Of a stretch of DNA of 64,000 bases, positions 9,233 through 13,102 are shown piece by piece. The notes beneath the pieces were generated by a model that was given only the letters and a program-made list of their open reading frames with translations, made no database searches and was not told where the DNA came from. The stretch's first letter is position 1; each line of letters begins with the position of its first letter. The stretch is from Thermoplasmata archaeon (GTDB taxonomy: Archaea > Thermoplasmatota > Thermoplasmata > Methanomassiliicoccales > Methanomethylophilaceae): NCBI GenBank assembly GCA_015063225.1, contig SUSU01000006.1:1-64000 (forward strand). The letters are read 5' to 3'. Made by a program: the position numbers and the translations under genes.

Positions 9233-10552
9233 TCAGTCGTCGCTGATGAGACTGAGGTACGCCGGGCGGATGATCTTGTTCGAGGATATGGTCTCCTCCA
9301 TGTGGTGCGCGCACCACCCCACGGTTCTCGCCACCGCGAACATGGGCGTGTAGAGGTCCCTGGGGATCCCCAGCAGGTCGTAGGCGAAACCGCTGTACAG
9401 GTCTATGTTGGCGCACTTCGGCCCCCCGTTATGCTTCTCGTTGACTATCGCGGGACCCTTGTCGGCGATGATGTTGAGCATGGCGAACTCTTTCTCCCTG
9501 CCCTTCTCCCTGGCGAGATCCCCGAGGGATCCCCTGAGTATCTCCGCGCGGGGGTCCGAGATGGTGTACACCGCGTGCCCCACGCCGTATATCAGACCGG
9601 AGCGGTCGAAGGCCTTCCCGTCCACGATCCTGCGGAGGTAATCGCACACCATCCCCTCGTCCGATATGTCGGATACATGTTTCTCGATGTCCTCGATCAT
9701 GTTCCCGACCATGTAGCTGGCACCTCCGTGCTTGGGTCCCTTCAGGGACAGTATGGCGGCGGCTATCACCGAATATGTATCGGAACCGGCCGAGGACACC
9801 ACGCGGGCGGTGAAGGTGGAGTTGTTCCCTCCCCCGTGCTCCTGGTGGAGGACGAGCACCCTGTCGAGTATGAGTGCTTCCAATCTCGTATACCTCCCGT
9901 CGGGACGTAGCATCCTCAGGATGTTCTCCGCTATGGTGAGTTCCGGGTCGGGGGACCTGATGGTGAGGGCCTCCCCCAGCCCGTAGTGGGCGTGCGCGCG
10001 GTACCCGAAGACCGCGATGGCGGGCATCGACGCGATTATGTTCATGGAATGCCTGAGGTTGTCCTCCGGGTCGTGGTTCCCGAGGGTGTCGTCGTACATG
10101 GCGAGATTCAGCACGCCCCTCGAGAGGGTGTTCATCACGTCGAAACCGTTGTCCCTGAGGATGACGCTCCTCACGAACCCCTTGGGCAGACCGATCTGCT
10201 CGTTGAGGAAACCGCGGAACTCCTTCAGCTGTTCCGCGTCCGGCATCTCCCCGAAAAGGAGGAGGTATGCGGATTTCTCGAAGAGCCCGAGCTCATCCCC
10301 CTGGGAGGATATGAGGTCCTCCACGTTGTACCCCCTGTAGATCAGACGCCCGCGGACGGGTCTGACCTCCCCATTGACCTTCCTCGTGCCCTCGACGCGC
10401 GAGATGCGGGTGAGCCCCGCTACTACTCCTTTCCCGTTACGGTCGCGGAGCCCCTTCTTGACATCGTTGCTCTCGAAAAGGTCCTGGGGGATCCTCCCGT
10501 CCCTGACGCATTTCTCGGTCCTGTCCTTCAGGAATTCATCATAGGTCCTCAT
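9233..10552 (-). CDS. Citrate synthase
   Basis: RGRLIYRGYNVEDL...DRVLVLHQEHGGGNNSTFTARVVSSAGSDTYSVIAAAILSLKGPKHGGAS...IYGVGHAVYTISDPRA; start MRTYDEFLKDRTEK. Confidence 0.95.
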   Translation of the reverse strand: MRTYDEFLKDRTEKCVRDGRIPQDLFESNDVKKGLRDRNGKGVVAGLTRISRVEGTRKVNGEVRPVRGRLIYRGYNVEDLISSQGDELGLFEKSAYLLLFGEMPDAEQLKEFRGFLNEQIGLPKGFVRSVILRDNGFDVMNTLSRGVLNLAMYDDTLGNHDPEDNLRHSMNIIASMPAIAVFGYRAHAHYGLGEALTIRSPDPELTIAENILRMLRPDGRYTRLEALILDRVLVLHQEHGGGNNSTFTARVVSSAGSDTYSVIAAAILSLKGPKHGGASYMVGNMIEDIEKHVSDISDEGMVCDYLRRIVDGKAFDRSGLIYGVGHAVYTISDPRAEILRGSLGDLAREKGREKEFAMLNIIADKGPAIVNEKHNGGPKCANIDLYSGFAYDLLGIPRDLYTPMFAVARTVGWCAHHMEETISSNKIIRPAYLSLISDD

Positions 10553-10737
10553 GTCCGTCACCTTCGTGTGACACTGCGGCATGCTGGCCGGTGTAACGGG
10601 ATTGATATCTTTTATCTGTTTAAAAACCCGCCCTCTTAGCCTGTAGGTCTGGGATGGCTGTTTGTCCGGTCTGTTTTCCTTTGTGTGCTGTGATTTGTTA
10701 ACTCTCGCAAAAAGGACTATAGCCCTCCCGACGGTTC

Positions 10738-10990
10738 GGCATGTGCCAGGAAGGAAGCTCGGTGAACAGAGCTTCTTGATGCGCTGGGCTCCAGGTCCTG
10801 AAAATCTGAATGGAGGTGAGAACACTCCTGAAGAAAGGAAGGACCAGGAAAGCGCGTAGCAAGCCATCATCCTGGTCCTCGGAGCAGCCCGTCTTATCGT
10901 CGGATTACTCGCACTCATCGTGAGATGAGCCGAGGAAACCACCTGGGGTTCCATTCTGATATCTGTATCATCCATAGATAACCGTTTGCC
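10738..10990 (+). ncRNA. Putative structured ncRNA, copy 1 of a tandem pair
   Basis: High nucleotide identity to copy 2 (11085-11362) without coding conservation. TATA-like AAAAAGGACTATAGCC upstream; conserved hairpins (GGACCAGG/CCTGGTCC, GGAG/CTCC, CTCATC-GTGA-GATGAG, ATCTGT/ATAGAT). Boundaries approximate. Confidence 0.6.
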
Positions 10991-11084
10991 ATTGTGTACT
11001 GAACACACAGTTCGTGAGTGTTGACAAGAATATGTTCTCTTTTGTTAACTCTGGTGAAAAGGATTATAACCTATCCGATAGTTT

Positions 11085-11362
11085 GGCATGTGCCAGGAAG
11101 GAAGCTCGGTCGACAGGGCTTCTGATGGACCGGGCTTCCGGTCCTGAGAGTCTGAAAGGAGGTGAGAACACTCCTGAAGAAAGGAAGGACCAGGAAATTG
11201 CCTAGCAAGCCATCATCCTGGTCCTCGGAGCAGCCCGGCTGATCGTCGGGCTTCTCGCACTCATCATGAGGTGAGTGTAGAGGAAACCACTTAGGGTCCC
11301 GAAAGGGACCCGTCCGAGGTTCTGAATCTAATATCTGCTTTCACAGTAGATAACCGTTTGCG
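11085..11362 (+). ncRNA. Putative structured ncRNA, copy 2 of a tandem pair
   Basis: See copy 1. TATA-like GAAAAGGATTATAACC upstream; compensatory changes relative to copy 1 (CCGG/CCGG vs CTGG/CCAG; ATCTGC/GTAGAT vs ATCTGT/ATAGAT). Extra hairpin GGGTCCCGAAAGGGACCC. Confidence 0.6.
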
Positions 11363-11456
11363 TCCGATGGGGATACGGCCCGGTTGGAAATGCGGCTATC
11401 AGAATGAATCCCGGCCAATCGCCATCATAAAACCGCCATGACCGCGAATGCCCTTC

Positions 11457-12227
11457 TCAGTGCGAGGAGATGAACCTCAGATATTCGGGGATGTAGAGTG
11501 CGGGACGAAGAAGGTGTCCGTCTCCTTGGATGCGGATCCTGTCCTTACATCCGAGCGCGTCCGCGATGGCATCGCCGTCCGCGGGTGACGACATGATGTC
11601 CTCCAGGCCATGTATCGAGAGGACCGGGCATCTCACACGGCGGACGTCCTTCACAGGATCGTATCCCGCGGCCGCTTCCAACTGCATGAGCATAGCCTCC
11701 CTCGGCCCCAACCTCATGTTCCTCACGCCCTTCCCGTTCTCCTCCGCGAATCTGAAGAACCCCTCGGTCCTGAGCAGGACGTTCATGAACGATGCCACGG
11801 CCTCTTCGGATATGTCCTCGTCCCTGTACCAGCGGGCCATGAGATCGAGTATGTACGACGTCCTCGCGGGCCGGCGGAGGTACGAGGATGCGACGGTCAG
11901 CGTGCGTACCCTGTCCGGATACCTGGCGGCCATGCTGAGCGCGATGTGGGATCCCATGGACCACCCGAGGACGTGCGCTGATGCTATGCCCAAGTGGTCC
12001 ATCAGGCGTACGACATCGTCGGCCATGTCCTCCAACGAGAACCTTCCCCGGCACTCGGTGAGCCCGGCGCCGCGGTTGTCGAGGGTGATCACGTCGCACC
12101 CCTCCATGAGGGGGATTGTCTTGGACCAGAAACCGGTGTCGCCGACCAGGCCCGTTATCAGCACGACGGGGATCCCCGAGCCCGAACGCTCGTAGTTGAT
12201 CCTTACGTCCCCGAGGTCGGTGAACAT
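11457..12227 (-). CDS. Alpha/beta hydrolase
   Basis: VVLITGLVGDTGFW...VITLDNRGAGLT...HVLGWSMGSHIALSMA (GxSxG nucleophile elbow)...GDGHLL; start MFTDLGDVRINYERSG. Confidence 0.88.
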   Translation of the reverse strand: MFTDLGDVRINYERSGSGIPVVLITGLVGDTGFWSKTIPLMEGCDVITLDNRGAGLTECRGRFSLEDMADDVVRLMDHLGIASAHVLGWSMGSHIALSMAARYPDRVRTLTVASSYLRRPARTSYILDLMARWYRDEDISEEAVASFMNVLLRTEGFFRFAEENGKGVRNMRLGPREAMLMQLEAAAGYDPVKDVRRVRCPVLSIHGLEDIMSSPADGDAIADALGCKDRIRIQGDGHLLRPALYIPEYLRFISSH

Positions 12228-12262
12228 ATCTATACACTGCAAGAGCCAGATGTGAAAATTAT

Positions 12263-12283
12263 GGCCGGGGTGTAACCCCGGCC
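12263..12283 (-). terminator. Hairpin between dapB and the alpha/beta hydrolase gene
   Basis: GGCCGGGG-TGTAA-CCCCGGCC perfect 8-bp stem downstream of dapB. Confidence 0.5.
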
Positions 12284-12289
12284 GGAGTT

Positions 12290-13102
12290 TCAGGCGAGGA
12301 CGTCGGTCATGGCGTAAACCTTGCCCTTCTTCTGCGAGACGACCCACTTGGCGGCCATGACGGCGCCGCCGACGAAAATCTCCCTGGAGTGGGCCTGGTG
12401 GCGTACCTCGATGCGCTCGGAGTTGCCGATGAACATGACGGTGTGGTCGCCGACGATGTCCCCTCCCCTGATGGAGTGCATTCCGATTTCCTTTCCGCGG
12501 GGGCAGACGCCCTCGCGCCCGCAGACGATCTCCTTCTTTCCGAGCTCCTCCTGGATGATCTCGGCGGTGGTCATGGCGGTGCCGCTGGGGGCGTCCTTCT
12601 TCTGGTTGTGGTGAGCCTCGATGATCTCCACGTCGTAGTCGAGGCCGAGGTTCTTCGCGGCCTCCCTGACGAGCTTGAAGAACACCCCGACACCGATGGA
12701 GTAGTTGGTGGAGATGACGGCCGCCACGTTGTTCTCCTCGACGGCCTTGGCGATGTCGGCCTTCACCTCATCGGACAGTCCGGTGGTGCCGATGATGAGG
12801 TTCACTCCCGCCTTGGCGGCGACCGGGGCGTTGGCGGCGGTGGCCGGGGCGACGGTGAAGTCGATGAGGACGTCCGTCTTGGATTCCTTGAGGACGGAGG
12901 CGAGGTCCTTGACGTCGGAGACGGGGACATCGATCTTCCCGATGCCTGCAACCTCTCCGACATCCTTCCCGACATTTACGAGGTCGAATGCTGCGGACAC
13001 GGTGATGCCCTCGGTGTTCATGAGACGGCGGACGATCATGGTCCCCATGCGTCCGCAGGCGCCTACCAGGGCGGCCCTTATTTCGCGGTTCTCTGCGCTC
13101 AT
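12290..13102 (-). CDS. dapB: 4-hydroxy-tetrahydrodipicolinate reductase
   Basis: ALVGACGRMGTMIVRRLM...DVLIDFTVAPATAANAPVAAKAGVNLIIGTTGL...EIIEAHHNQKKDAPSGTAMTTAE. Confidence 0.95.
   Translation of the reverse strand: MSAENREIRAALVGACGRMGTMIVRRLMNTEGITVSAAFDLVNVGKDVGEVAGIGKIDVPVSDVKDLASVLKESKTDVLIDFTVAPATAANAPVAAKAGVNLIIGTTGLSDEVKADIAKAVEENNVAAVISTNYSIGVGVFFKLVREAAKNLGLDYDVEIIEAHHNQKKDAPSGTAMTTAEIIQEELGKKEIVCGREGVCPRGKEIGMHSIRGGDIVGDHTVMFIGNSERIEVRHQAHSREIFVGGAVMAAKWVVSQKKGKVYAMTDVLA

Follow-up and report, generated by a model that had tools for sequence, protein, structure and literature searches.

TxpA/RatA and BsrG/SR4 of B. subtilis as well as Fst/RNAII are convergent type I toxin-antitoxin modules in which the two RNAs overlap at their 3' ends. 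In E. coli, Ldr/Rdl and Ibs/Sib form multi-copy direct repeats in intergenic regions, each repeat encoding a toxin mRNA and a cis antisense RNA. Ldr is reference 80 of PMC8309996. According to a paper of 2025, type I systems were known only in Proteobacteria, Firmicutes and Tenericutes, with Cyanobacteria proposed next (PMC12390103). No archaeal case was found in the literature, which is weak evidence as subscription papers were thinly covered. The archaeal family described here matches the bacterial modules in peptide size, in a single amphipathic helix, in its tandem multi-copy chromosomal layout and in the predicted 3'-overlapping antisense RNA (PMC8309996, PMC6563280).

Two diverged copies of one element lie in tandem at 10738-10990 (copy 1) and 11085-11362 (copy 2) of the window, i.e. 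the whole stretch of 64,000 nucleotides that was analysed. The original prediction had described two adjacent units with long identical blocks, and these were found there as direct repeats of 83 nt at 83% (10694/11041), 153 nt at 88% (10777/11123) and 35 nt at 77% (10955/11327) with a spacing of 346-372. Judged from sequence comparison, each unit may represent a small type I toxin-antitoxin-like gene, a reading to which we give an even chance. It consists of the following parts.

Copy 1, 10709..10724, + strand: sense promoter-like sequence (A-rich BRE-like stretch and CTATAG), located some 20 nt upstream of the conserved 5' end; seen in the sequence
Copy 1, 10738..10811, + strand: structured 5' leader GGCATGTGCCAGG; layout kept, paired sequences different in most relatives
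Copy 1, 10754-10760/10769-10775, + strand: leader hairpin GAAGCTC/GAGCTTC; the loop can also pair downstream (pseudoknot or alternative helix)
Copy 1, 10812..10819, + strand: Shine-Dalgarno sequence GGAGGTGA; GGAGG at the equivalent place in 70 of 89 relatives
Copy 1, 10830..10928, + strand: peptide ORF with the conserved part EERKDQESA[TAG]QAIILVLGAARLIVGLLALIVR; frame and peptide common to relatives
Copy 1, 10926-10928, + strand: stop codon TGA of the ORF, with an in-frame TAG at 10857-10859; seen in the sequence
Copy 1, 10841..10878, + strand: helix H3, GGACCAGG (10841-10848)/CCTGGTCC (10871-10878); covariation in relatives
Copy 1, 10888..10903, + strand: helix H4 region CCCGTCTTATCGTCGG; covariation in relatives
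Copy 1, 10975..10989, - strand: predicted antisense promoter GCAAACG-GTTATCTA, TATA-like at 10975-10982; block identical in copy 2, TATA enrichment in relatives
Copy 2, 11056..11071, + strand: sense promoter-like sequence GAAAAGGATTATAACC; seen in the sequence
Copy 2, 11085..11157, + strand: structured 5' leader with hairpin GAAGCTC (11101-11107)/GGGCTTC (11116-11122)
Copy 2, + strand: alternative leader pairing AGCTCGGTC/GACCGGGCT (11128-11136); seen in the sequence
Copy 2, 11158..11165, + strand: Shine-Dalgarno sequence GGAGGTGA, corresponding to GGAGG of relatives
Copy 2, 11176..11274, + strand: peptide ORF with the conserved part EERKDQEIA[TAG]QAIILVLGAARLIVGLLALIMR
Copy 2, 11272-11274, + strand: stop codon TGA of the ORF, with an in-frame TAG at 11203-11205; seen in the sequence
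Copy 2, 11187..11224, + strand: helix H3, GGACCAGG (11187-11194)/CCTGGTCC (11217-11224); covariation in relatives
Copy 2, 11234..11250, + strand: helix H4, CCCGGC-TGATC-GTCGGG; covariation in relatives
Copy 2, 11283..11321, + strand: 3' element GAAACCACTTA-GGGTCCC-GAAA-GGGACCC-GTCCGAGGTT, close to where the antisense RNA is predicted to start
Copy 2, 11347..11361, - strand: predicted antisense promoter GCAAACG-GTTATCTA; TATA enrichment in relatives

When both units were compared with Rfam (4227 families), no family reached its gathering score and only chance-level matches appeared up to an E-value of 10. An identity as SRP RNA, RNase P RNA or riboswitch was unsupported. The family is new to Rfam, as had been proposed, and the reported lack of a match to SRP RNA or RNase P RNA was confirmed there. 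A DNA search of 40 relatives returned a third copy in the source genome (contig C6, 76-78% identity) as the sole match, while a peptide search across the order yielded relatives in other genera. The first covariance model, made of 20 core sequences with helices H3 and H4, matched 28 of the 147 genomes from the order Methanomassiliicoccales. A second one, built from 93 matches, left this picture unchanged. In total, about 110 copies were counted. They are spread over 27 genomes that all belong to one archaeal family (Methanomethylophilaceae-type), in agreement with the archaeal nature of the elements originally assumed; this count leaves out genome G026, a weak match in another family. Between 1 and 14 copies were present per genome, often in tandem (e.g. 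G119 contig C11, G107 contig C35 and G053 contig C3). A class-wide covariance search gave no matches beyond the same family of genomes, and none were obtained in plasmids, phages and viral contigs, the viral scan being one exact pattern. Hosts in a stem-pattern search were a Thermoplasmata MAG (SIG8) and a Methanomethylophilaceae MAG from goat abomasum, next to bacterial sequences that are unrelated and match the palindrome by chance. The weak matches in G026 and at C12:21316 of the source genome were not accepted, being without the layout of Shine-Dalgarno sequence and ORF, and neither was a weak match in G087 accepted as family member. Short plus/minus matches to the H3 stem alone were dropped as palindrome artefacts. 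Apparently, this is a multi-copy gene family of gut methanogens that was undescribed before.

The recurring parts of the family are an upstream TATA-like box, a folded 5' leader, the Shine-Dalgarno sequence GGAGGTGA, an ORF and a 3' hairpin. As predicted, each window unit has a promoter-like TATA box of its own, and many relatives carry one at the place equivalent to the sense promoter of copy 1. Two 10-bp helices, H3 and H4, lie inside the ORF and covary. In 91 distinct copies, fitted to the covariance model, 88.7% of the cells were paired and 19 of 20 pairs showed two-sided changes, among them all 10 pairs of H4. The two-sided cells amounted to 188 compared to 61±7 in shuffles, and in a MAFFT alignment of 20 sequences with 89.0% paired cells to 36 compared to 14±3; the copies are related and these figures are thus not probabilities. 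Paired cells dropped to 27-51% and 30-49% when the helices were slid. The hairpins with compensatory changes that had been quoted for the window are present, and the covariation extends across the relatives. Once these are included, the structure is far beyond chance.

The 5' leader forms a hairpin GGAAGTCC-loop-GGACTTCC. A second pairing, with a segment further downstream, involves its loop and 3' half, and the sequence of this pairing covaries as judged by eye. The leader is predicted to be a pseudoknot or to have two alternative folds. Predicted accessibility of the Shine-Dalgarno sequence was low with a mean unpaired probability of 0.30. Past the stop codon, the family has a 3' element AAACCxCTTA-hairpin. 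The extra hairpin announced for copy 2 was found in this element as GGGTCCC-GAAA-GGGACCC within 11283-11321. Of this element, 38 nt recur unchanged in the third genomic copy and in a single G011 copy, and a pattern search with the identical element had matches in the source genome and G011 only. The element is largely lost in copy 1. The 3' element of most relatives has the layout of copy 2 with a different stem. Some copies in G044 and G125 (L036, L027) carry an additional hairpin, inserted past the stop codon and ahead of the AAACC element; the 3' region therefore gains and loses hairpins, as seen between copy 1 and copy 2.

Given the very strong covariation, a structured regulatory RNA with a secondary ORF, either dual-function or non-coding as originally predicted, has to be weighed. 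It would also agree with the broken ORF of the window copies and with a 3' element that is identical in three copies despite differing ORFs. We nevertheless regard it as quite unlikely, as the placement of start codons, the openness of one frame and the variation at third codon positions are unexpected for a non-coding RNA. In nearly all copies, a single short ORF occupies a common frame, with its end immediately 3' of H4. It comprises 28-36 codons in most of about 90 copies and would encode a peptide of about 30 residues with the consensus of roughly xxEKDQGxxLxKLxLVLEAIRLLVELLR. From a fixed upstream point to the stop codon, this frame was open in 69 of 89 copies, the other frames in 2 and 24, with the stretch past the LVL codons being open in the coding frame by construction. 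The start codons provide an independent test on the 70 relatives with GGAGG: a start-like codon 4-10 nt 3' of this motif was in frame in 57 cases and in the other frames in 9 and 6; ATG occurred 18 times in frame and 0 and 0 times out of frame. ATG, CTG, ATC, ATA, TTG, ACG and GTG were used, most commonly 7-8 nt from the Shine-Dalgarno sequence, and about half of the starts were near-cognate (CTG, ATC, ATA, ACG). Their positions fall outside the paired regions and are therefore not explained by the helices. Between close copies, 157, 133 and 244 differences were counted at codon positions 1, 2 and 3, and the peptide was kept across strongly diverged DNA. The original prediction had itself named a coding signal in some frame as evidence against a non-coding RNA, and its term 'non-coding' is not supported by these counts. 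Its small ORFs, judged 'not coherent', contain one coherent frame per copy if the TAG at 10857 and 11203 is read through, and intact relatives share this frame. On the strength of these comparisons, the units can be considered as protein-coding, tightly folded mRNAs rather than non-coding RNAs.

The N-terminal part of the peptide is charged (EKDQG-like). Next comes a single hydrophobic helix of amphipathic character (LVLEAIRLLVELLR-like), for which a mean Eisenberg hydrophobicity of 0.38 and a moment of 0.39 were calculated over 18 residues. MSKSSKDQGGLIAKVNLVLQAIRLLVELLKV is an example of an intact family peptide. No family in Pfam, NCBIfam, PHROGs or PADLOC, which include known type I toxins, matched any of 28 members up to an E-value of 0.1, and the PDB gave no meaningful match to the peptide. 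A small ORF for a hydrophobic single-helix peptide is typical of type I toxins and was found here. The coding and structure evidence would fit equally well to genes of small membrane or signalling peptides with structured mRNAs and without toxicity, e.g. a stress-regulated membrane protein, a secreted peptide or a peptide antibiotic family, with the antisense promoter as regulator only. The copies are chromosomal, multi-copy and without a common mobile-element context, which agrees with such genes. This explanation is possible and, in our view, somewhat doubtful: tandem copies, near-cognate starts, a promoter facing in antisense direction and a Shine-Dalgarno sequence buried in structure together suggest the tight silencing that is typical of toxic products.

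The antisense-facing promoter was deduced from TATA-like boxes that read back into the element and are concentrated 50-100 nt past the stop codon. At a threshold of at least 7 of 8 consensus bases, 28 of 82 copies had a minus-strand TATA box at a distance of 40-125 nt from the stop, compared to 4.7±2.1 in dinucleotide shuffles; at other ORF ends, it was present in 11 of 291. It was equally frequent with the upstream neighbour on the minus (19/57) or plus strand (8/27) and is therefore not simply the promoter of the neighbour. Plus-strand matches downstream also exceeded expectation (14/82 compared to 4.9), partly because the motif is near-palindromic, so that the orientation is deduced from minus-strand matches outnumbering plus-strand ones. 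Two thirds of the copies are without a strong minus-strand match. The minus strands of relatives often read TTTATATA, a gap of about 20-35 nt, (C)AGAAC..GACC and the 3' hairpin. Within the window, the block AGATAACCGTTTGC common to both copies is the predicted antisense promoter. It corresponds to the shared block TAGATAACCGTTTGC (10975-10989 and 11347-11361), which reads GCAAACGGTTATCTA on the minus strand, and its TATA box agrees with the consensus at 6 of 8 positions only. The 3' hairpin ATCTGT/ATAGAT of the original prediction is present as sequence, and its region is better explained as this antisense promoter.

A short ORF behind a leader with alternative pairings could also point to a leader peptide and attenuator or to another cis-regulatory element of downstream genes. 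This is highly improbable and largely refuted by the context: downstream genes vary by locus and are divided about equally between the opposite and the same strand (42 minus, 40 plus), and the next gene in the window is convergent (11457-12347, -). No shared neighbour or partner gene was seen at nine loci inspected in detail, the neighbours varying from locus to locus. On the other side of the window units, the element lies upstream of a citrate synthase-like gene on the opposite strand (9236-10570, -). A second such gene, about 50% identical to the first, is located at C30:43552-44868 of the same genome. Synteny with close relatives was uninformative as these are too distant, with at best about 60% protein identity for the neighbouring citrate synthase. 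In G053 and G068 (L068 and L069), groups of elements flank a block of about 3.4 kb with two ORFs of 258 and 495 aa that are conserved between both genomes.

Both window copies carry the in-frame TAG in the loop of H3 and have no start-like codon 4-10 nt 3' of the Shine-Dalgarno sequence, and may therefore be decaying. A state as pseudogenes, which is compatible with any reading of the family, has slightly less than an even chance. Besides the missing start and the TAG, the absent 3' hairpin of copy 1 and two better-formed copies in the same genome speak for it. The latter (C6:26425-26522, L006 and L007; C30:30843-30928, L104) both have an ATC start-like codon 7-8 nt 3' of GGAGG, and the C6 copy is an open frame reading MMPGKKLGAQSFSMRRAPALRIRREVKTIPKDDKGQGLTWLLTLALGAAQLLVGLLALILR. 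Several observations stand against decay. Copies 1 and 2 differ by six synonymous and two non-synonymous codons, with five of the six synonymous ones past the TAG, which suggests selection on the peptide in this part, although RNA structure could contribute. Sense and antisense promoter blocks are conserved in both copies. The source genome encodes PylS (275.7 bits, well above the cut-off) and UAG may thus be read as pyrrolysine, which is the case in members of the order Methanomassiliicoccales (PMC5011839). An in-frame TAG was also found in relatives from four other genomes, and just 1 of 87 copies terminates with TAG. In-frame TAA and TGA likewise occur in relatives, which makes decay about as likely as pyrrolysine. 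The in-frame TAG mostly lies 15-21 nt before the LVL codons (L080, L068, L071:10329, L170, L172), in L172 at -15 as in the window copies. Such a recurring position suggests repeated use of pyrrolysine or tolerance, and the window copies may be pyrrolysine-containing variants or decaying ones.

The type I-like reading is based on the hydrophobic helix, the structured mRNA, the weak starts, the tandem copies and the convergent antisense promoter; the missing usually spaced start of copies 1 and 2 and the missing 3' hairpin of copy 1 count against it. Under the type I reading, a folded mRNA of about 250-280 nt would start near 10738 or 11085 and, from a strong Shine-Dalgarno sequence embedded in structure, would be translated to a limited extent into the peptide of about 30 residues. 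The convergent promoter 50-100 nt past the stop would yield an antisense RNA with its 5' end at the 3' hairpin, overlapping the last part of the mRNA. Its pairing with the mRNA would block translation or trigger decay, so that fold, weak start codons and antisense RNA together keep peptide output low. If the antisense RNA failed, membrane insertion of the peptide would follow and lead to growth arrest.

The most far-reaching version, a first archaeal type I family with routine near-cognate initiation (AUC, CUG, AUA, ACG) and some members extended through UAG by pyrrolysine, is unlikely. If true, it would tie toxin production to the supply of pyrrolysine and hence to methylamine metabolism. An archaeal family with the same logic and unrelated sequence would mean either an independent origin of the scheme or a much greater age than has been assumed. 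The family would also be a rare archaeal case of systematic near-cognate translation starts and a rare case of a coding sequence that is strongly constrained as RNA. As the hosts are methanogens of rumen and gut, inducible small peptides that arrest growth would be practically relevant there.

Among the known type I toxins, none was found to be homologous to the family. It resembles the archaeal RNAs in Rfam (SRP RNA, RNase P RNA and others) in length and compact structure, but differs by its coding capacity and lacks a match to them. With TisB/IstR-1 of E. coli it shares a peptide of about 30 residues with one amphipathic helix and alternating charges, a structured 5' leader and, as predictions for the family, limited ribosome access and an RNA antitoxin (PMC8309996). 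The two systems belong to different domains of life, TisB is SOS-regulated, and the pairing site of IstR-1 is located upstream of the toxin ORF, while the predicted antisense RNA of the family would overlap the 3' end. The repeat expansion is like that of Ldr/Rdl and Ibs/Sib, again without homology and with a different antisense geometry. Compared to the 3'-overlapping modules, to which it has no homology either, the family has archaeal TATA promoters, frequent near-cognate starts and covarying helices within the coding sequence. The arrangement predicted here, a convergent antisense RNA over the mRNA of a short hydrophobic peptide, is the one described for CD2517.1-RCd8 and CD2907.1-RCd9 of C. 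difficile (PMC6563280).
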